Source of the DNA: Abditibacteriota bacterium
Lineage (GTDB): Bacteria > Armatimonadota > UBA5829
NCBI GenBank assembly: GCA_017552965.1
Contig: JAFZNQ010000009.1
Location: 62,001 to 126,000 of the forward strand
Direction of reading: 5' to 3'
DNA: 64,000 nt
The number at the start of each line of letters is the position of its first letter. The stretch's first letter is position 1. Below are positions 4,970-59,043 of this stretch, piece after piece. A program made the position numbers and the translations under genes. The notes beneath the pieces were generated by a model. It did not search any database. It saw nothing but the letters and a program-made list of their open reading frames with translations, and had not been told where the DNA came from.

Positions 4970-6268
4970 ATGAAAAACAGATTTGTATCCGACCTGAAGC
5001 TCCTGTATCCCGGCCTCGGGATCAAGCGCTGGTTCCTGCTGCTGGGAGCAGGCGTTGCTCTCATTGCCTTTGGCCTCATGCTCACTCTGGGGACCGATAT
5101 ACTGAAGATCGAGAGGTATTTTGCTATCCGTCTTTTCAGCTCCACAGGCCTTATGCTGACAGACGGGACCACCAACACAGTCATTTGCTTCCTGTTCCTG
5201 CTGGTCGGCATCATCTGCATATTGCTGGCCGTGAGACAGATAGTCATCAATGTGTTCCGTACAGTCCACCCCCATGCGGACTCCCGTATCGCGGACATGG
5301 TCTTTGAAAAGCATCTCCTGTCGGAGGGACTGAAGATCACGGTCATAGGAGGCGGCACCGGTCTTTCCACTCTCCTGAGAGGACTGAAGGAGTATTCGGC
5401 CAATATCACTGCCATAGTGTCCGTGACGGACAACGGCGGCAGCACGGGCAGACTGAGGGAAGAGCAGGATATTCCGGCTCCCGGAGATATCCGCAACTGT
5501 ATCATCGCTCTGGCAGACAAGGGAGAAGATATGGAGAAGCTGTTCCAGTACAGATTCAACACTCTGGTACCGGAGTTGGAAAAACACTCCTTCGGCAACC
5601 TGTTTATAGCCACTCTCACTCAGCTCACAGGTTCCTTTGAGACCGCTGTGGAACGGTTTGCGGACATCCTCGCTATCAGAGGCAAGGTGTATCCCTGTTC
5701 AGGGGACTCCATAGACCTGATCGCCACCTTTGAGGACGGTACCGAAGTCAGGGGCGAGACCGATATCGTGGATTACAACAAGCCCATCAAGAGCATCCGT
5801 CTCTCGGACCGCAATGCCAAAGCGCCCAAGGGAGCCGTGGACGCCATCATGAATGCGGACATCGTCATTCTCGGCCCCGGTTCGCTCTATACCAGCATAG
5901 TACCCAACCTGCTGGTAAAGGAAATAAGGGCGGCCCTTATCAAGACTCACGCCCCCAAAATACTGGTGTGCAACGTCATGACTCAGAAGGGCGAATCCGA
6001 CGGGCTGTCTGCCTCAGGGCACTGCAGCGCCATACAGAACGTCATAGGCAGAAAGAAGATACTGGACTACGTGCTGGTCAACACCTATCAGCCCATGAAC
6101 AGCCAGGCAGAAAAATACATGAAGGCCGGCCAATTCTACGTGAAGGCCGATCTGGACAATATAAACAAGATGGGGATCAAGGCCATCAGCGGGAACTTCA
6201 TCAATACCAGCAGTACCGTGAAGCATGATCCCGCAAAGGTAGCCGAGGCTATTATAAAGGTATTCTGA
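4970..6268 (+). CDS. yvcK: YvcK/CofD-like protein with N-terminal membrane domain
   Basis: The C-terminal 320 residues are a YvcK (gluconeogenesis factor, CofD-like) domain: GGGTGLSTLLRGLK (about residue 124), TDNGGSTGRLR, DIRNCI, and ILGPGSLYTSIVPNLLV. YvcK is needed for growth on gluconeogenic carbon sources and affects cell shape and wall-enzyme localisation in Bacillus, and binds UDP-sugars in some species. Unlike B. subtilis YvcK, this one has about 110 extra N-terminal residues with two membrane segments (about 20-42 and 64-86), so it should be anchored in the inner membrane. A whiA-type gene, usual next in Firmicutes, is absent; a DUF2993-like gene takes its place. Confidence 0.92.
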   Translation: MKNRFVSDLKLLYPGLGIKRWFLLLGAGVALIAFGLMLTLGTDILKIERYFAIRLFSSTGLMLTDGTTNTVICFLFLLVGIICILLAVRQIVINVFRTVHPHADSRIADMVFEKHLLSEGLKITVIGGGTGLSTLLRGLKEYSANITAIVSVTDNGGSTGRLREEQDIPAPGDIRNCIIALADKGEDMEKLFQYRFNTLVPELEKHSFGNLFIATLTQLTGSFETAVERFADILAIRGKVYPCSGDSIDLIATFEDGTEVRGETDIVDYNKPIKSIRLSDRNAKAPKGAVDAIMNADIVILGPGSLYTSIVPNLLVKEIRAALIKTHAPKILVCNVMTQKGESDGLSASGHCSAIQNVIGRKKILDYVLVNTYQPMNSQAEKYMKAGQFYVKADLDNINKMGIKAISGNFINTSSTVKHDPAKVAEAIIKVF

Positions 6269-6269
6269 C

Positions 6270-6932
6270 ATGAACATCAAACGCTTACCCAAAAAGACCG
6301 TCGTGATCGCAGCCATAGCCTGCGGCGTCTTCCTGCTGTGGATGGTGTCCTACCTCTGCATCAAAGCCGGCATAGAAAAAAAGCTCTCCGGCGAGATAGA
6401 AAACAAGACCCACAGCCCTGCCCGAGTGCGCATATATTCGGATATGTTTTCCATCTTCGGCGGCCGCATCAGAAAGGCAAACGTGGACATAACTACGGAC
6501 AACAACACGGGCTACGTAAAGCTGACCCTATCCGGTATACGCATCAACGCCCGTGATCCTCAGCAAAGCAATATCGGAAAGATGGTTTTTGACATCAAGG
6601 TGTCCGAGAACACCTTGCTCGGCATCATAAAAAGCGGCGCGCAGAATCTGAACATACAGATGTCCGGCGGTTACGTGACTGTCAGCACCAACCAATACAA
6701 CGCCGTGGGCGTGCTGCAGGCCTCGGGACCTTCCGTATATCTGCGCATCGTCAGGGCCTCTGCCGGGGGATACGCTGTGGATCCGTCCTCTGTAGACAAG
6801 CAGATCAATCCTATCATTAGCAAAGACAACCTGAACTTCAAAAGGTTTGAATATCTGGCCGGCGGCAGCAATGCGGGCTTTTATGTGATGACGGGCGAAG
6901 TCACCCGTCTTGACGGCCTGCGCGGCTTTTGA
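6270..6932 (+). CDS. DUF2993 (LmeA-like) membrane-anchored lipid-binding protein
   Basis: The 220-residue protein has one N-terminal membrane segment (about residues 10-30) and then a beta-rich domain. The pattern of an amphipathic helix (IEKKLSGEIENKT), an R/V-x-I-x-S-D-MFSIFGGRI segment and a following beta strand resembles the DUF2993/LmeA family, whose studied members bind phospholipids on the outer face of the membrane. This is a judgement from pattern, not alignment. It lies 1 bp after yvcK and ends 20 bp before the likely start of the next gene. Role unknown; an envelope function fits the context. Confidence 0.55.
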   Translation: MNIKRLPKKTVVIAAIACGVFLLWMVSYLCIKAGIEKKLSGEIENKTHSPARVRIYSDMFSIFGGRIRKANVDITTDNNTGYVKLTLSGIRINARDPQQSNIGKMVFDIKVSENTLLGIIKSGAQNLNIQMSGGYVTVSTNQYNAVGVLQASGPSVYLRIVRASAGGYAVDPSSVDKQINPIISKDNLNFKRFEYLAGGSNAGFYVMTGEVTRLDGLRGF

Positions 6933-6940
6933 CGACAACG

Positions 6941-6946
6941 AGGAGG
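6941..6946 (+). promoter_or_regulatory. Perfect Shine-Dalgarno fixing a TTG start
   Basis: AGGAGG at 6941-6946 is followed 6 nt later by TTG at 6953. An earlier in-frame TTG (6929) has no ribosome site and overlaps the previous gene. The start at 6953 puts the hydrophobic export signal directly at the N-terminus, as expected. Confidence 0.7.
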
Positions 6947-6952
6947 CAGCAA

Positions 6953-8260
6953 TTGTTCAACAAAAAAACCCGGGCAGCGCTGATGCTGTTCATATTTCTG
7001 GTCGGTCTCCTTATGGGCTGCTCCCTGGTGAACAAACAGATACGCAAGGCCAGCGATCCTCTGGATCACCTGAGCGCATCCACCGATGGAGCCCTGAGCA
7101 CCCTCTTCAATCCCACCAGTACCTTTTATGCAGTCATGCGGGCCATGAATACGGAATACGTGGAAAAGATCACCCCCGAGTTCGAGACCCGGATGTCCGT
7201 CAATCTCGTCAAGGGCATGCTGCGTGAAATGGGTGATCAGAATACCAGATACGTGGAGCCCGAGGAGGCCGCTCTGCTGATCAATGCGGAAAAAGGCGAT
7301 TTTGAAGGCATAGGCATCCGGTCCCGCATAATACCCACCGAGATAGACGGCATCCGGGAAGAACAGCTGCACGTAGGCTCTGTGATCCCGGGCTCCAATG
7401 CATACAAAGCAGGTCTCAAGGACGGAGATATCATCCTGTCCGTGAACGGCAAGGACGTATTGCCCTACAATCCTCTGGCCAGAGCCGAAAAGGCCCTCAA
7501 CGAATACAGGATGAAGCCGGACATCACCAAGCAAAAACAGCTGCAGAAATATCTGGATGACGAAAATGCCCGAGTAGATAAGGGCGTCATGATACTTGAA
7601 GCGGAAAAACAGCTGGAAAGAGGCTCCGAGGGCCATTTTGTTCTCGCTGTAAAACGGGGCTCCGAACAAAAGACTGTCGAAGTCGATGCAGGCAAATATC
7701 ATCTGGATATCATTGAGACCAAAGACATAGCCGGATACAAATATATTAGGATCAACTATATATCCGGGGATCTGAAAAAGGCTCTCTCAGGTGAGACGTC
7801 TGATGCCGGCAAGGGGCTGATACTTGACCTCAGAGACGTTTTCGGGGGCAGCAGCGAAGGGACCTCCGACGCGTTGTCGCTGTTCCTGCCTTCCAGGACA
7901 CTCTATCGGGTATCCGCTCAAAAGAGCAGACTGCTGAGGACTCCCGCCTGTTCCGAGCCCTGCCGAGCCCCTGTGATGGTGTTGGTGAACAGCGGTACCA
8001 GCAGAATGAGCGAGATCATGGCTGCTTCTCTCAAAGCCTTTTATCCCGACACAGTCATCTGCGGCGAAGCCACCGAAGGCGACTTTACCGAGCTCACCTA
8101 TTTCGGGCTGGACAACGGAGGCGGCTATACCATGACTTCGGGAAAATACATGACACTCGCCAACAAGGAACCCGAGCCCGTCAGCCCGGACGTGGCTTTT
8201 TCCGGCGACACCGGCGTTTTGCCCGACTCAGCCTTTATCGCCAAGGCCTTCGGGAGGTAA
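6953..8260 (+). CDS. S41 (C-terminal processing) peptidase homologue, predicted inactive
   Basis: The 435-residue protein begins with a hydrophobic signal ending in LLMGC, a plausible lipobox, so it is probably a lipoprotein. It has the tail-specific protease layout: helical N-domain (about residues 55-110), PDZ domain with GSVIPGSNAYKAGLKDGDII, and the S41 core (GLILDLRDVFGG, VNSGTSRMSEIMAAS). In active S41 enzymes the nucleophile is the second Ser of SASASE and the base is the Lys of FGKG. Here these positions are Arg351 (TSRMSE) and Asp or Gly (TEGDF, near 377), so catalysis is not expected. The adjacent paralogue keeps both residues. A regulatory or substrate-delivery role is possible. 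Confidence 0.85.
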   Translation: MFNKKTRAALMLFIFLVGLLMGCSLVNKQIRKASDPLDHLSASTDGALSTLFNPTSTFYAVMRAMNTEYVEKITPEFETRMSVNLVKGMLREMGDQNTRYVEPEEAALLINAEKGDFEGIGIRSRIIPTEIDGIREEQLHVGSVIPGSNAYKAGLKDGDIILSVNGKDVLPYNPLARAEKALNEYRMKPDITKQKQLQKYLDDENARVDKGVMILEAEKQLERGSEGHFVLAVKRGSEQKTVEVDAGKYHLDIIETKDIAGYKYIRINYISGDLKKALSGETSDAGKGLILDLRDVFGGSSEGTSDALSLFLPSRTLYRVSAQKSRLLRTPACSEPCRAPVMVLVNSGTSRMSEIMAASLKAFYPDTVICGEATEGDFTELTYFGLDNGGGYTMTSGKYMTLANKEPEPVSPDVAFSGDTGVLPDSAFIAKAFGR

Positions 8261-8263
8261 AAT

Positions 8264-9640
8264 ATGAAGAGTATCATCAAATATATCATCTGCTGCATCA
8301 TCGTCTTTATGCTCGGCGTGGCTACCCCCATATTGGTGTTTGCTCACGTCACCTCCGGCCGCACGGTGATAGACAGCGGCAGGCAAATGATGGCAGCTCT
8401 GAGGAACTTTCCTCAAAAGGGTCAGGTCGCGGGAGTCATCAGGAAACCCGACCTGAAGGCTACCGACACCTACACGGCAGTGATGAGGGATCTGGAAAAC
8501 ACCTATTACAAAAAGATAGATCCCGTAAAGGTCACCTATTCCGGTATCAGCGGGATGCTCACCACCTGCGAAGACCCCTTTACCTATTTCATCGAGCCCG
8601 AAGCCTACAAGTCCATGCGCGAGGAGACCGAAGGCAATTTTTCGGGCATAGGCGCAGTGCTCAAGAAAAACGAGCTGGGGGAGACCAAGATCCATGAGAT
8701 CATTGAAGGCGCTCCTGCCGAGGGCGCCGGTCTGCTGGCCGGTGATATCATACTGAAGGTAGATGATTTTGACTGCCATGACAAGGATCTGGACACCATA
8801 GTCAAGCGCATCCGCGGCGAGATAGGGACACAGGTGACTCTGACTATTTCCCGCAAGGGAGAAAAAACTCCCCGGACCATCACCGTCACCCGGGCAGTCA
8901 TACAGGAAACCACGGTGACAAGCCGTATGCTCACCGAAGCGGACGGCTTCAGAAAGGCCGACGGCATCGGCTACATCAGACTGCATCAATTCAATCAGAA
9001 GGCAGACGCGGAGGTGGACAAGGCCTGGACCAAGCTGGAATCGGAAGGGATGAAGGCCCTGATCTTCGACCTCAGGGGCAATCCCGGCGGTCTTTTGACC
9101 ATGGCTATCAGCGTAGGCAGCCGCTTTATAGACAAGGGTGACGTAGTGATCATCCGTGAAAAGGGCGGCAAGAGGATAGACGTTCCCATCGAACGCGCGG
9201 CGCAGGACCATCCGTTTCTTCCCGTAGCCGTGCTGGTCAACGGCATGTCTGCCAGCGCCTCGGAGATCGTCTCCGGCGCCATCAAGGACAATCACGCAGG
9301 CACTATCATCGGCACAGTCACCTTTGGCAAGGGGCTGGTACAGTCCATAGTGCCCATTATGACCGACGGAAGCGCCTGCAGCATCACCACCGCAAAGTAT
9401 TATACTCCCGCTGATATAGATATCAACAAAAAGGGTATCGAGCCGGACATCATGATCGAAGAAAGCGAGAATTACGATCCCGACAATATCAGGACGGACA
9501 ACCAGCTGAGCTGCGCCGTCAACGTGCTGCGGGTCAAGCTGGGCTTGAGGGACGAACGCACCCTGCAGAGCTATTACACTCAGTCGGAAAAGCTCCTCAG
9601 GGAGTACAGAAGCAAAAAAGCAAAGGAACGAAAGGAGTAA
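8264..9640 (+). CDS. S41 family C-terminal processing peptidase (Ctp), membrane anchored
   Basis: This 458-residue serine protease has a single N-terminal membrane segment (residues 5-27), an N-domain with DPFTYFIEP, a PDZ domain (IIEGAPAEGAGLLAGDIIL) and the S41 catalytic core (IFDLRGNPGGLL, then SASASEIVSG and TFGKG). Ser331 and Lys356 are 25 residues apart, as are Ser430 and Lys455 in E. coli Tsp. The family cuts exported proteins near their C-termini. It begins 3 bp after the gene for an inactive paralogue, so the two are probably co-translated and may act together outside the inner membrane. Confidence 0.93.
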   Translation: MKSIIKYIICCIIVFMLGVATPILVFAHVTSGRTVIDSGRQMMAALRNFPQKGQVAGVIRKPDLKATDTYTAVMRDLENTYYKKIDPVKVTYSGISGMLTTCEDPFTYFIEPEAYKSMREETEGNFSGIGAVLKKNELGETKIHEIIEGAPAEGAGLLAGDIILKVDDFDCHDKDLDTIVKRIRGEIGTQVTLTISRKGEKTPRTITVTRAVIQETTVTSRMLTEADGFRKADGIGYIRLHQFNQKADAEVDKAWTKLESEGMKALIFDLRGNPGGLLTMAISVGSRFIDKGDVVIIREKGGKRIDVPIERAAQDHPFLPVAVLVNGMSASASEIVSGAIKDNHAGTIIGTVTFGKGLVQSIVPIMTDGSACSITTAKYYTPADIDINKKGIEPDIMIEESENYDPDNIRTDNQLSCAVNVLRVKLGLRDERTLQSYYTQSEKLLREYRSKKAKERKE

Positions 9641-10149: not shown

Positions 10150-10885
10150 GGCAGATATGCTGGCCAGGCTCAGGGAAGAGACCCTCGCCTGCCATAAATG
10201 CAGGCTCTCATCCACCAGGACCAAGGTGGTGTTCGGCGAAGGCGATCCCGAGTCGCCTCTCGTTATCGTGGGAGAGGGCCCCGGAGCCACAGAGGACGAG
10301 ACCGGCATTCCCTTTGTGGGCAAGGCCGGCCGGCTCCTTACGGAATGTCTGATGGAATGCGGTATAGAGCGCAAGCGCGTATTTATCTGCAACGTGGTAA
10401 AATGCCGGGCCTGTATCGTGGGCGAAAAAACCATAAAAAACAGGCCTCCCGAGCCCGACGAGATCGACAGCTGCAAGGACTGGCTCCTGGGGCAGCTGGC
10501 CATATTGCAGCCCATGGTCATTCTGGCTCTTGGCGCACCGGCTACCAGATTTCTTCTGGGAAGACAAAACGTGGCCATGACCAAAGAGAGAGGCGTCTTT
10601 TATGAAAGTGCTTTCGGGATACCGGTCATTCCTTCATTGCATCCGTCCTATATACTGCGCAATCAGTACAAGGACGGTGACGGAGGCAAGAGTCTGCTGG
10701 TGGCAGATATAGAAGCTGCCAGAAAAAAGGTGATAGAGCTCAAGCGCGCCAAAAAGCGCAGCGAGGAGACCGGCGACAAGGCGCCCAAAGTTCCTGCGGA
10801 AAGGCCCGCAGAACAGGATGCCGCCCCGGAAAGCGCGGAGCCTTTTGACAAGTATTCCTTCAGGGAAAAGGAGCTGGGGATATGA
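10142..10885 (+). CDS. Uracil-DNA glycosylase, family 4 (4Fe-4S)
   Basis: The protein is 247 residues from the ATG at 10142. It has the CHKC pair of the iron-sulfur cluster near the N-terminus (about residues 16-19), the family 4 motif GEGPGATEDETGIPFVGKAG, a second Cys pair around VVKCRACIVGEK and DSCKDW, and the HPSYILR motif that contacts DNA. Family 4 enzymes remove uracil from DNA. The last 45 residues form a charged, Pro/Ala/Glu-rich tail outside the fold. An in-frame extension back to 10094 lies inside the HIT gene and is not used. Confidence 0.92.
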   Translation: MNKADMLARLREETLACHKCRLSSTRTKVVFGEGDPESPLVIVGEGPGATEDETGIPFVGKAGRLLTECLMECGIERKRVFICNVVKCRACIVGEKTIKNRPPEPDEIDSCKDWLLGQLAILQPMVILALGAPATRFLLGRQNVAMTKERGVFYESAFGIPVIPSLHPSYILRNQYKDGDGGKSLLVADIEAARKKVIELKRAKKRSEETGDKAPKVPAERPAEQDAAPESAEPFDKYSFREKELGI

Positions 10886-12798
10886 GATATTGTTTGATTA
10901 TTATGCTGCTGTTTCTGTATGCGCCCCTGCTTGCCTCTCAGGTCACCCTGCGTGGCACTGTGGGTGATCAGGACCTTGCCTACACGGGCGAAGAGATCGA
11001 TGGTGAAAAGGCTTTCTCAGTGAAAAGCAACAGCATCTACGTGATGATCACCGAGCTCTATCCCTATTCTCCCACAAAGGACTGCCCTGCATACTCTTAT
11101 ACAGTGGACATCACCGGAGAAGCGCCCTTTGTCCGGCATTTCACGGGACCAGGCTTTGGTCCTGTGTCTTATTTTATCAGGCTGTCCTCGACGGCCAAAA
11201 ACAAAAAAGTGACAATCAGGGCCTCGGGAGAAGTCAAGCCGGTGATATCTCAGGTCAAAGGCGTATCTGCCGACGACCTGGCCCGGGAGAAAAAGCGCGA
11301 TTCCTTCATCATCTCGGGCCTCATCCCGCCGGTGTCTCCCAACCTGGAGGGCCTGGAGCCTCCCGTCAGAGAGCTGGCCGAATCTCTTCCGGACCTGCCG
11401 GAGGAATATCACATTTCAAAGGGAGTGAGCACCGAGATCAGGTATGCCAACACTCCCGACAACGTGCTCAGGGATATAGCCGACGCTTTTTATTTGCTCC
11501 ACGACAAATACTCCCTGAAGATCATCATAGGAATGGTATCCTGGTGGAGCGGCACTCCCCGTTTTGTTAACGACCCGGAGGGGCTGCCCTTCGGAGACGA
11601 AAAGTATCAGCAGATATGCTACAGCCCGGACCTGAAATTCCCTTTCAGCCAAAAGCTCAGTGATCTGCTGGGACCGAGATACAACACCCATTATACGTCC
11701 ACCCAGCCCAACCAATGGGCAAATACGCCCTGGCTCACCATGAATTCCGACGCCCTGTTTGAATTCAGGCGCGACACTCTCCGCAAGGCCTTTGAGATAC
11801 TGGGAGGAGCAGCGGATACCACCGACTGGATCGACAACGTATATATGGAAAATGAGCCCAAATATTTTGACATGGTCCTGGACAGGGACGGCGCCTACGG
11901 AGAGCGGCTGTGGGCCGACTTCAACCCTTTTGCTGTGGCAGCGGCCAAGAAAGACGGCGTGGAGCTGGACCCCGGGGACGGTCTTTCCGAAGAAGAGCTG
12001 CTGTGGCTCCACAGGAACGTGTCGGAATACAATACCCGCAGCGCCGGGATGTACAGGGAGATCATGCAGGAGCTTGGCTTTGGTCAGGATATCTACACCC
12101 ATTCCCTGTATCAGGGAAGGGACGTGTTTCCCTGCAATATGCTGAAGGGCAAGCCAGCGTCCGAGTGGGCAGTGTCGGCCAAGGCATTTACCGGTCTGGA
12201 AAGCTGCACCATCCCCATGCTGCCCTCGGACATATACAGAGTGAGGGAACACGGGCGCTGGACCAATCTCAATCGCGAAGAAAACGACGGCATGCCTCTG
12301 ACGCTGCACCTCTATGACCTGAGGCTGGCGTATATGATGGGCGCGGACTACTACAATTCATACAACTGGCACTCCATAGGTCAGGGCGCCTATGCCGGCT
12401 ATGCCTCTGACTTTGCAAAGGGCTTCCCCTGCCCCGCGGAAAAGCCTCAGGACGTCAAAAAGCAGGCAGCCGACGTTCTCGGCATCTGTCTGCCTTACGG
12501 ACTCCTCAGCTTCACGGAGCTCACAGTCAGGACTCGACCTCTGGAGAGGGAGCTGACGACCACTGCTGCCCTCAGTGATCCCGACGGCAACCTGATAGCG
12601 CAGGTGCCCATAAAAGCAGAGGCAAACACGGATACCATCAGGATAGTGTTCCCCTCCATGCTGGAGTGTCCCATGAACAAGGATCTGTCCCTTGTCATAC
12701 CCGGATGCGATCTGCTGACAGAAGGCGTCACCGTGGGTATAGATCTCCACGAGCAGCGTATGCTGTCCCGCTTGATAATAAACAACAAGGTGAAATGA
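10882..12798 (+). CDS. Secreted glycoside hydrolase-like protein of unrecognised family
   Basis: The 638-residue protein has a signal peptide (first 18 residues, ending LLAS), a beta-rich N-terminal domain (about 20-120) and a large central region with TIM-barrel features: IIIGMVSWWSG, DWIDNVYMENEPKYFD, YTHSLYQGRD and DYYNSYNWHS. The MENEP segment (Glu323, Glu325) resembles the acid/base NEP motif of clan A glycosidases, and TNLNREENDG could supply a second acid. The C-terminal about 100 residues form another beta domain. No known family can be assigned by eye. It overlaps the UDG gene by 4 bp and is followed by a sugar kinase gene, which suits carbohydrate use. Confidence 0.6.
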   Translation: MRYCLIIMLLFLYAPLLASQVTLRGTVGDQDLAYTGEEIDGEKAFSVKSNSIYVMITELYPYSPTKDCPAYSYTVDITGEAPFVRHFTGPGFGPVSYFIRLSSTAKNKKVTIRASGEVKPVISQVKGVSADDLAREKKRDSFIISGLIPPVSPNLEGLEPPVRELAESLPDLPEEYHISKGVSTEIRYANTPDNVLRDIADAFYLLHDKYSLKIIIGMVSWWSGTPRFVNDPEGLPFGDEKYQQICYSPDLKFPFSQKLSDLLGPRYNTHYTSTQPNQWANTPWLTMNSDALFEFRRDTLRKAFEILGGAADTTDWIDNVYMENEPKYFDMVLDRDGAYGERLWADFNPFAVAAAKKDGVELDPGDGLSEEELLWLHRNVSEYNTRSAGMYREIMQELGFGQDIYTHSLYQGRDVFPCNMLKGKPASEWAVSAKAFTGLESCTIPMLPSDIYRVREHGRWTNLNREENDGMPLTLHLYDLRLAYMMGADYYNSYNWHSIGQGAYAGYASDFAKGFPCPAEKPQDVKKQAADVLGICLPYGLLSFTELTVRTRPLERELTTTAALSDPDGNLIAQVPIKAEANTDTIRIVFPSMLECPMNKDLSLVIPGCDLLTEGVTVGIDLHEQRMLSRLIINNKVK

Positions 12799-56546: not shown

Positions 56547-57386
56547 CTACAAGACTATCTTTTTGGCATCTCCTTCCAGCGGCACCCACTCGGTCTCCAC
56601 CCGGTCGTCATACACCTTGTACAGCATAAAGCCTACAGGCAGTTTGCTCTGGGCGCAGCCCACCATGCTTCTGACGCATATATGGCGGGTGCCCTTGTAG
56701 GTGATGTCTGTCTCCCAATGGAGATGGCCTGCCAGCACGTATCCCACGTGATACTTTTCCAGCAGAGCGAGATACTTTTCCCTGAGGTCAGGCCTCACCG
56801 CATTGTAGGATTCCTCCTCGTCATAGCTCTCGGATATAAAGGGGATGTGGCACAGCACGAATATATGGTCATAGCCGCAGGTCCTGGAGCCCTCCAGATT
56901 GTTTTCCAGCCAGCGGCGCTGCCGCTCTTCATATTCGCCGCTGTTGCGGTATCTCTCCGTAGCGCAGGTATCCACGCACAGAAAGAGGGAATTGTTTTTG
57001 ACGAATTTATAATAATCTCTGCCATAATCCGCATAATACTTCTGCAGACCGTTGGGATTGATGATGATGTCATGATTGCCGGCAGCGCAATAGAGAGGAC
57101 ACTTGAGACCCTCCGTCGCTTCTCTGAACTTTCCCACGTAGCGGGCGTCGTTGGGATAAGACACCATATCTCCGGAGCAAAAGACAAAGTCGGGCTGCAT
57201 CTCATTGATCTTTTTTACAGCCTGCTTCAGCACGGTGTTGTCAAGAGATTCGGGAGTCCCCACCTCCACCTGCTTGATGGCAGCCAGCCACCCCATATGG
57301 GGGTCGGAAAGCTGGATGAAGGAAAAAGGCTTTGCCATAACTGCGCATGAACATATAAAAATAAAAACAGCAGCGATAAGTTTCAT
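56547..57386 (-). CDS. Secreted metallophosphoesterase, tandem copy 3
   Basis: The 279-residue protein has a signal peptide (residues 1-18, AVMA) and calcineurin-like motifs: QLSDPHMGWL (DxH), CSGDMVS (GD), AAGNHDIII (GNHD), LCHIPF and LAGHLHWETD (GHxH). Its sequence matches the next upstream gene at most positions, so the duplication is recent. The set resembles CpdA/CPPED1-like phosphoesterases, which hydrolyse various phosphoesters. It is 45 bp upstream of glnN and may be co-transcribed with it. Confidence 0.9.
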   Translation of the reverse strand: MKLIAAVFIFICSCAVMAKPFSFIQLSDPHMGWLAAIKQVEVGTPESLDNTVLKQAVKKINEMQPDFVFCSGDMVSYPNDARYVGKFREATEGLKCPLYCAAGNHDIIINPNGLQKYYADYGRDYYKFVKNNSLFLCVDTCATERYRNSGEYEERQRRWLENNLEGSRTCGYDHIFVLCHIPFISESYDEEESYNAVRPDLREKYLALLEKYHVGYVLAGHLHWETDITYKGTRHICVRSMVGCAQSKLPVGFMLYKVYDDRVETEWVPLEGDAKKIVL

Positions 57387-57396
57387 GATATACTCC

Positions 57397-58239
57397 TCAC
57401 AACATTATTTCTTGCGGATCGTCCGAAAGAGGGAGCCACTCCGTTTCCACTCTGTCGTCGTAAACCTTATACAAACGGAAACCCTTGGGTAACTTATTCC
57501 AATTCGGGTCTGATACAAAGCTCTGGACAGCGATATGACGCGTGCCGTCATAAAGAATATCCGTTTCCCAGTGCAGATGGCCTGCGAGCACAAATTCCAC
57601 GTTGTATTTTTTAAAGAGAGTCAGGTATTTCTCCCTGAGATCGGGTCTTACAGAGCTGTATGACTCTCCTTCGTCAAAGCTCCTTGCTATAAAAGGAACG
57701 TGGCACAAAACAAAGATATGGTCATAGCCGCAGGTTTTGGACCCCTCAAGATTGTTTTCCAGCCAGCGCCGTTGTTTTTTCTCGTAGGCATCGCAATTAC
57801 GGTATCTTTCCGTAGCGCAGGTGTCCACACACAAAAACAGTGAATTGTTGTAAACAAACTTATAATAATCCCTGCCAAAATCCTCGTAATAATGCTTAAG
57901 GCCGTTTTCGGTAATAATAATATCATGATTTCCGGCTGCGCAGTACAAAGGCATCTCCAGATCTTTTACCGCTTCCTTGAATTTGGCGACATATCCCTCG
58001 TGATTGGCAAAGGAAACCATATCCCCCGAGCAATAAACAAAATCGGGTTTCATGGCATTGATCTTCTTCACGGCTGCTTTCAGCTCTGTATTGTCAAGAG
58101 ACTCGGGAGCCCCCAATTCCACTCTCTTGATAGCTGCCAGCCAACCCATATGGGGGTCGGAAAGCTGGATGAAGGAAAAAGGCTTGCACACGGCTGCCAC
58201 CGAGCACAATAAAACAGCGAAAATAGCGATGAGCTTCAT
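57397..58239 (-). CDS. Secreted metallophosphoesterase, tandem copy 2
   Basis: This 280-residue near-duplicate of the downstream gene has the same signal peptide layout (AAVCKPF), QLSDPHMGWLAAIKRVE, CSGDMVSF, AAGNHDIIITENG, LCHVPFI and LAGHLHWETD. The DNA is visibly richer in A and T than the other two copies, while the protein stays conserved, suggesting relaxed codon choice or a different recent origin. Gap to the downstream copy is 10 bp. Confidence 0.9.
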   Translation of the reverse strand: MKLIAIFAVLLCSVAAVCKPFSFIQLSDPHMGWLAAIKRVELGAPESLDNTELKAAVKKINAMKPDFVYCSGDMVSFANHEGYVAKFKEAVKDLEMPLYCAAGNHDIIITENGLKHYYEDFGRDYYKFVYNNSLFLCVDTCATERYRNCDAYEKKQRRWLENNLEGSKTCGYDHIFVLCHVPFIARSFDEGESYSSVRPDLREKYLTLFKKYNVEFVLAGHLHWETDILYDGTRHIAVQSFVSDPNWNKLPKGFRLYKVYDDRVETEWLPLSDDPQEIML

Positions 58240-58248
58240 AGTGATGCC

Positions 58249-59043
58249 TCACAAATTGATATTATTTACGTCTTCACCGAGAGTGATCCACCTCTCACTG
58301 ATCCTGTCCGGATACACCCGAAACAGCCTGAAGCCGGCATATTCCAATCCTTCGGAGGGCTGGCACAGAGTGGTGCTGGTCAGGTGTCTGGTACCGCGGA
58401 CCGTCACGTCAAACTCCTTGTGGGTATGCCCTGCCAGCACGTATTCCACTCCGTTTTCTTCCAGCAGGTCCAGATACGGGCCTCTGAATTCGGACAAGAC
58501 GCTGAGGTTGTTGTCCTCTTCATCGGGAGCATACACCAAAAACGGCACGTGACATATCACGAAAATATGGTCATAGGACCTGCTGCGGGAGGCAGATAAA
58601 ACCGCCTCAAACCATTCCAGACCCCTTTTGGCAAGATCCCTGTCGATGAAATACTTTTCCATGCAGCAGGTATTCAGATTGACAAACAGACTTCCGCCGT
58701 ATTCGTAGGCGTCATTTTCCATGCCAAAGCTCTGCCTGTATATACCGATCTCATCGGGAGACATGAGAATGTCGTGATTGCCGCAGGTATAATGGGCGGG
58801 GCAGCAAAGCCCCGACACGCTCTCCTTGAATCTGTCGATGAGGAGCTGCTCTCTGGCAAAGCACACCATATCGCCGCAAAACACGGCAAGATCCGGCCGG
58901 AGGGCGTTGACCTGGGACACGCACCTCAGGAGATGAGTATTGTCCATACACGCCTCCGAGCCGAATGCTGCCTGCCTTACTGCGTACAGCCAGCCTATAT
59001 GAACGTCGGATATCTGAACGAATGAAAAAGACCCGGGTTTCAT
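58249..59043 (-). CDS. Metallophosphoesterase, tandem copy 1 (no signal peptide)
   Basis: The 264-residue paralogue keeps the metal motifs (QISDVHIGWLYAVRQA, FCGDMVCF, CGNHDILMS, ICHVPFL, LAGHTHKEFD) but starts only nine residues before the first one and has no signal peptide, unlike its two neighbours. The ATG directly follows the T tract of the nifJ terminator and has no ribosome site. It may be poorly translated, translated without a Shine-Dalgarno sequence, or truncated at the 5' end. Divergence from the other two copies is greater than between them. Confidence 0.82.
   Translation of the reverse strand: MKPGSFSFVQISDVHIGWLYAVRQAAFGSEACMDNTHLLRCVSQVNALRPDLAVFCGDMVCFAREQLLIDRFKESVSGLCCPAHYTCGNHDILMSPDEIGIYRQSFGMENDAYEYGGSLFVNLNTCCMEKYFIDRDLAKRGLEWFEAVLSASRSRSYDHIFVICHVPFLVYAPDEEDNNLSVLSEFRGPYLDLLEENGVEYVLAGHTHKEFDVTVRGTRHLTSTTLCQPSEGLEYAGFRLFRVYPDRISERWITLGEDVNNINL

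Follow-up and report, generated by a model that had tools for sequence, protein, structure and literature searches.

Two genes of the S41 family lie in tandem on the forward strand of the window, the 64,000-nucleotide stretch of DNA analyzed here, and all features of the pair given below are on that strand. ORF A (6953-8260, TTG start, 435 amino acids) encodes an S41/PDZ pseudoprotease and ORF B (8264-9640, ATG start, 458 amino acids) encodes an active-type S41A C-terminal processing protease (CTP) of the CtpA/CtpB type. A Shine-Dalgarno-like motif can be read from the sequence for each gene, GAGGAGG at 6940-6946 for A and GGGAGG at 8252-8257 for B. Since the latter sits within the last codons of A, translation of A and B is probably coupled. 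Both probably derive from one transcript.

The first-pass annotation described the two genes as adjacent paralogues sharing S41 and PDZ domains, and profile searches bear this out. The Pfam S41 domain (PF03572, cut-off 24 bits) scores 54.9 bits in A and 168.3 bits in B, PDZ domains exceed the Pfam cut-offs in both proteins (PF17820 at 38.9 bits for A), and A and B match each other with a phmmer E-value of about 5e-16. At the cut-off of 218.6 bits for the NCBIfam prc family (TIGR00225), B passes with 304.8 bits and A falls below with 93.5 bits. Scanning the whole source genome (2.78 Mb in 138 contigs) returned no Peptidase_S41 match beyond A and B, and Rfam and tRNA scans of the 64-kb window returned no matches.

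Alignment confirms that B has kept Ser331 (9254-9256) and Lys356 (9329-9331), separated by 25 residues, which we take to be the spacing in E. coli Tsp, and places Gln360 (9341-9343) as the third member of its S-K-Q set. The same columns in A hold Arg351 (8003-8005, in TSRMSE), Asp377 (8081-8083, in TEGDF) and Leu381. Arg351 had been correctly assigned in the first reading, which hesitated between Asp and Gly at the Lys position; the residue is Asp. B thus combines the S41 core, the PDZ domain and the Ser-Lys dyad of an S41A protease, and A has the core and the PDZ domain above their cut-offs and lacks the dyad. B also carries Arg184 (8813-8815), the likely counterpart by alignment of the PDZ gating Arg known as R168 in CtpB and R162 in H. 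pylori CtpA (HpCtpA; role from PMC12749690, which like the other papers below is cited from excerpts).

At its N-terminus (6953-7039) A has a membrane-anchor helix, amino acids 4-29 in the structural model, with a lipobox-like LLMGC. The proposal that A is a lipoprotein is plausible for the window sequence but is ruled out as a family trait, a simple scan finding lipobox-like N-termini in 6 of 119 A copies. A further feature of A absent from B is a helical insertion inside the PDZ domain, at about amino acids 170-209 (7460-7579).

Upstream of the pair lie RapZ- and YvcK-type genes, a weak LmeA-like ORF and an ORF that looks UvrC-like by eye; downstream are a HIT protein and a uracil-DNA glycosylase. 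In the YvcK/CofD-like protein (4970-6265) the CofD domain begins at residue 123; the additional N-terminal part of about 120 residues includes hydrophobic stretches, which suggests that the protein may be membrane-anchored. The ORF between its gene and A (6270-6932) encodes a membrane-anchored product whose LmeA-like match, at 19.1 bits, stays below the cut-off of 27.3. Elsewhere in the window, a 638-amino-acid ORF with a signal-peptide-like start (10882-12798) has no Pfam match at E-values up to 1, and three minus-strand ORFs stand in tandem at 56547-59043. Two of them begin almost identically (SFIQLSDPHMGWLAAIK) and the third resembles them; by eye they look like duplicates of a phosphoesterase-type protein.

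Loss of the dyad and descent of the pair

A profile of A was searched in 291 genomes of the phylum, 64 of which were searched again at a looser threshold, and 140 stretches were taken. Active-site columns were read in 296 ORFs from 173 genomes, with a copy called A-type when the A profile scored above the B profile; one row (L195, genome G084), another S41 protein reading S-M-S, was excluded from the A counts. The dyad counts omit one B and one A row with unreadable Lys or Gln columns and five B-type fragments without an active site. Both dyad columns are readable in 118 of the 119 A rows, and among these Ser occurs in 13, Lys in 2 and the two together in none. In the Lys column, 91 of the 119 A rows have Asp. 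The S-K-Q set is present in every one of the 170 B or single copies in which the three columns can be read. Relatives whose A carries both Ser and Lys, a case raised by the first-pass annotation, were sought and not found among the 118 readable copies. An alternative alignment restoring the dyad of A is likewise ruled out: none was found in the 296-ORF alignment, in which the GT..E and G..T.G columns on either side are in register.

Among the A copies read, only two, both of family f11 (L130 and L193, genomes G097 and G098), have kept Lys; their Ser is replaced by Gly, so the dyad was lost there by another route. In family f36, genome G242 has two adjacent S41 copies that are both S-K-Q (L150), a separate duplication in which the dyad was not lost. 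Around the lost dyad, Thr349, Glu354, Gly376, Asp292 and Arg294 rank among the most conserved columns of A; Thr349 has a frequency of 1.00 in the tree set of A and is Ala in genome G206. This conservation indicates that the groove of A has been kept while its chemistry is gone.

The search of relatives for the same pair, as proposed at the outset, found A in 22 of 45 families; the other 23 have single copies only, except for the two copies of G242. All 116 loci with both genes have them on one strand with A upstream, and the distance from the A stop to the first B start codon has a median of 2 nucleotides (n=115). An apparent B-first case (L194) consists of an A fragment at a contig start and a B whose open frame reaches the contig start, and in four genomes (G028, G068, G078 and G102) A and B are on different contigs, or only one is present, at contig ends. 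Two f27 genomes (G086 and G092, completeness 94 and 97%) show no CtpA-type copy of A or B, only other, mostly longer S41 proteins. Two 1.5 Mb genomes of family f16 (G179 and G180; L207 and L210) keep B beside a very diverged A-like ORF that scores 104 and 85 bits with the A profile.

In a 114-row tree (45 A, 45 B and 24 single copies), built with a quick method, unrooted and with several long A branches, a branch with SH-aLRT 100 separates all A copies from the other rows. The A branches are longer than those of B, so A evolves faster. An AU test finds the single copies compatible with one clade (p 0.722). As a pseudoprotease paralogue of the CtpA-type protease B, A is ancient and has a single origin.

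A is also under purifying selection. Within genera its dN/dS (Nei-Gojobori) ranges from 0.03 to 0.22, mostly near 0.1 and in many cases roughly double the B value for those pairs; 56 of the 62 listed A pairs were usable, 6 having no usable dS, pairs below 60% identity were skipped, and the ratios are rough because many dS values exceed 1. The suspicion that A is a pseudoprotease kept intact is therefore strongly supported: the gene is old, widespread, under purifying selection and always beside its active partner where the contig allows. With its S41 fold, lost dyad and gene maintained by selection, A belongs among the non-peptidase S41 members.

In some families the protease or the pair stands among cell-wall genes. 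An EnvC-like protein of the M23/PcsB-coiled-coil type precedes the protease in one or more loci of 16 of the 23 single-copy families; FtsE and FtsX usually come before the EnvC-like gene, and a LysM/G5 protein often comes after the protease. Among the families with a pair, f5, f6, f10, f15 and f21 place A between EnvC and CtpA (B) in an FtsE-FtsX-EnvC-CtpA cluster, and more such cases may be hidden because many f1-f5 and f8 loci were read with only 1.5 kb of flank. In the source genome the pair is not beside FtsE-FtsX-EnvC; that cluster is intact on contig C62 (27000-34500), where the 7.5 kb read around it holds no S41 gene. The cluster positions, together with the S41-free cluster on C62, make it seem that the pair arose by tandem duplication in the cell-wall cluster and was later relocated as a unit. 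Neighborhoods differ between families, and that of the window appears not to be conserved: an upstream YvcK gene was seen only in the source genome and one other (G001), a weak negative for the YvcK/LmeA/HIT arrangement given the many 1.5 kb flanks.

Constraint and predicted structure of the two paralogues

By comparing column entropies in 45 genomes with both genes, we find that A differs from B by domain: 2.28 versus 2.00 bits in the N-domain (+0.28), 2.07 versus 1.84 bits in the PDZ domain (+0.23) and 2.28 versus 1.54 bits in the S41 core (+0.74). The ratios of pairwise identity, A to B, rank the core in the same way (N-domain 0.82, PDZ 0.73, S41 core 0.63). Thus A has relaxed most in its catalytic core, and its dimerization and PDZ parts are constrained at levels closer to those of the live enzyme.

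Within the PDZ domain the GxG loop is retained in 115-116 of the 116 A copies with letters there. The gating Arg column, placed by alignment to the PDB sequences (CtpB Arg168, HpCtpA Arg162), holds Arg in 7 of 119 A copies, and 114 of the 117 B copies have Arg or Lys there. Nearly all A copies have about 35 extra PDZ residues, the segment having a median of 52 (tenth percentile 48) versus 17 in B and single copies; the sequence of the insertion varies, no A-only column reaching 70%. After the S41 core the tail has a median of 27 amino acids in A versus 46 in B, which makes a CtpA-like hexamer of A and B unlikely as such. His-85 is conserved in CtpA and not in CtpB (excerpts of PMC12749690). 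Its equivalent, taken as a mark of the CtpA-type hexamer, is absent from most B copies: His is found in 13 of the 117 B copies and in 2 of the 54 single copies, and B otherwise has mostly Tyr (62) or Phe (38), the window B having Phe.

AF2 models of A and B have mean pLDDT values of 85.7 (30 alignment rows) and 82.7 (26 rows). The PDZ insertion of A is predicted as helices at 176-187, 191-210 and 214-222. N-terminal helices are predicted in both proteins (54-68 and 75-93 in A, 66-80 and 87-101 in B) and align to those of CtpA and CtpB in the PDB. The predicted C-terminal helix is long in B (432-457), and A has one short helix (426-433). By Foldseek and VIA-align both models match CtpA, CtpB and D1 protease, the best match reaching Z 26.1 for A (rmsd 3.8, 320 aligned residues) and Z 32.6 for B (rmsd 5.3, 344 aligned residues).

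In the asymmetric entries, the chains preferred by one model are those that the other matches less well (Foldseek TM scores normalized by the model). Against chains A, C and E of HpCtpA 9jr1 the A model scores 0.56, 0.53 and 0.50 and the B model 0.43, 0.43 and 0.40; against chains B, D and F the values are 0.45, 0.46 and 0.42 for A and 0.62, 0.60 and 0.47 for B. The HpCtpA structure is described as having three subunits at rest, two active and one intermediate (excerpts of PMC12749690), which fits chains A, C and E resting, B and D active and F intermediate; we infer the chain states in 9jr1 and the 8sx entries. In the F105R variant 9ku0, where all subunits rest (same excerpts), chains A-D score 0.53-0.55 with the A model and 0.41-0.42 with the B model. 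VIA-align likewise chose opposite chains for the two models in 9jr1, 8sxe, 8sxf, 8sxg and 8sxh. The prediction thus puts A in the resting and B in the active PDZ arrangement, a difference that could reflect the alignments used for AF2. With CtpB, 4c2c (active) and 4c2e (resting) score 0.52 and 0.38 with the B model and are not separated by the A model (0.50 and 0.52).

Candidate roles of the pseudoprotease

Because a cell-envelope protease and its dead twin recur in about half of the families of the phylum, A is best seen as a kept working part rather than a decayed gene, most likely as a partner subunit of CtpA. As the first-pass annotation proposed, regulation or scaffolding would be the most natural role for A. 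Known CTPs offer a mechanism: in PaCtpA-LbcA one CtpA per dimer is activated (PMC11021448, excerpts), and each N-dimer of HpCtpA has one subunit that necessarily rests (PMC12749690, excerpts). Together with the present data, this rule points to A as a resting, docking or regulatory subunit and to B as the only cutter. We lean, at just short of an even chance, toward A being a pseudoprotease subunit that pairs with B in an A:B dimer, of which A would be the half that always rests. A would pair with B through the N-terminal helices that dimerize known CTPs, and its PDZ domain, with the extra helices, would be offered for docking of a substrate or partner. B would be the sole cutting subunit, positioned or licensed by A. 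The targets could be cell-wall hydrolases or their regulators; the substrates of PaCtpA are cell-wall hydrolases (PMC11021448, excerpts). The one-active-per-dimer rule may not hold for B, since most B copies lack His-85 and both subunits of CtpB can be active (PMC12749690, excerpts). Possible but on balance doubtful is a bolder version, in which Armatimonadota encode the two sides of the obligatorily asymmetric CtpA dimer in separate genes, giving an obligate A(resting):B(working) N-heterodimer, perhaps arranged A-B-B-A through the C-terminal helices of B, that tunes the turnover of peptidoglycan hydrolases in the FtsEX-EnvC pathway.

A could instead be an adaptor like LbcA or NlpI, binding substrates with its PDZ domain and extra helices and handing them to a B homodimer without replacing any B subunit. 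The retained GxG loop, the A-specific PDZ insertion and the short C-terminal tail would suit this role, and PaCtpA and Prc are known to need adaptors (excerpts of PMC11021448 and PMC12749690), but A retains the N-domain helices that dimerize CTPs, and its insertion is too variable in sequence to resemble a conserved docking site; we regard an adaptor as unlikely. Pairing with A might also take B out of active dimers, so that release or removal of A would be needed for more than a low level of cell-wall proteolysis. Pseudoenzymes often act by dominant-negative pairing, and an upstream, probably co-translated A in a predicted resting arrangement would fit a safety device. Inhibition is nevertheless quite improbable in our judgment, as the single-copy families manage without A.

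Less probable again is a role of A independent of B, either ligand binding in the manner of vertebrate RBP3, whose S41 fold without protease residues carries retinoids (excerpts of PMC11750400), or a new activity on Thr349 and Asp377, with adjacency a relic of tandem descent. The near invariance of Thr349 and the frequent Asp at the Lys position would agree with it. However, neighborhoods change across families and yet A adjoins B in 116 of 116 loci, and the f27 genomes that lack B lack A as well. Decay of a duplicate or a sequence error, to which the faster evolution of A might lend color, is a scarcely credible explanation: A is widely conserved in intact frames, and the relatives read, the low dN/dS and the single origin rule this out.

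Pseudoprotease partners and dead S41 proteins are already known, the latter from vertebrate RBP3 (PMC11750400, excerpts), and our search of the open-licence PMC literature found no bacterial S41 pseudoprotease paired with a live paralogue. Recent structural papers raise the question of why half of the subunits of CtpA-type proteases are left at rest. If A is the resting half of an A:B dimer, a separate gene for the resting role would let the resting and working roles be mutated independently, and a bacterial protease-pseudoprotease pair would have been kept across a large clade and linked by gene order to cell-wall remodeling. Such a pair would also warn that S41 annotation overcounts proteases in these genomes.

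Comparison with known systems

The closest systems are the CtpA of P. aeruginosa (with LbcA) and of H. pylori, with which B shares domain order, catalytic set and PDZ Arg, and whose structures the A and B models match over most of their length. There, one protein forms both subunits, and only its conformation keeps the resting subunit inactive, whereas here a second gene lacks the dyad; in addition, most B copies have no equivalent of His-85 and A has no long C-terminal tail. Bacillus subtilis CtpB, for which we know of no dead paralogue, has the same S41/PDZ fold, N-terminal dimerization and PDZ gating by Arg168. Unlike the proposed A:B dimer, it is a homodimer that can have both of its subunits active (PMC12749690, excerpts).

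Further parallels come from outside the bacterial CTPs. The vertebrate retinol-binding protein 3 (IRBP) consists of S41-fold modules without protease residues (PMC11750400, excerpts). It differs from A as a carrier of retinoids and fatty acids with no active partner encoded alongside. CspC and CspA of Clostridioides difficile are subtilisin-like. They too are bacterial pseudoproteases working as a pair (excerpts of PMC12880746 and PMC6636752), but they act in spore germination and both partners are dead. The AdoMetDC-prozyme pair of Trypanosoma brucei has an unrelated enzyme fold, and activation is demonstrated there whereas for A we only infer it; the likeness is that complex formation with a dead paralogue activates the live enzyme (excerpts of PMC5201418 and PMC6221367).
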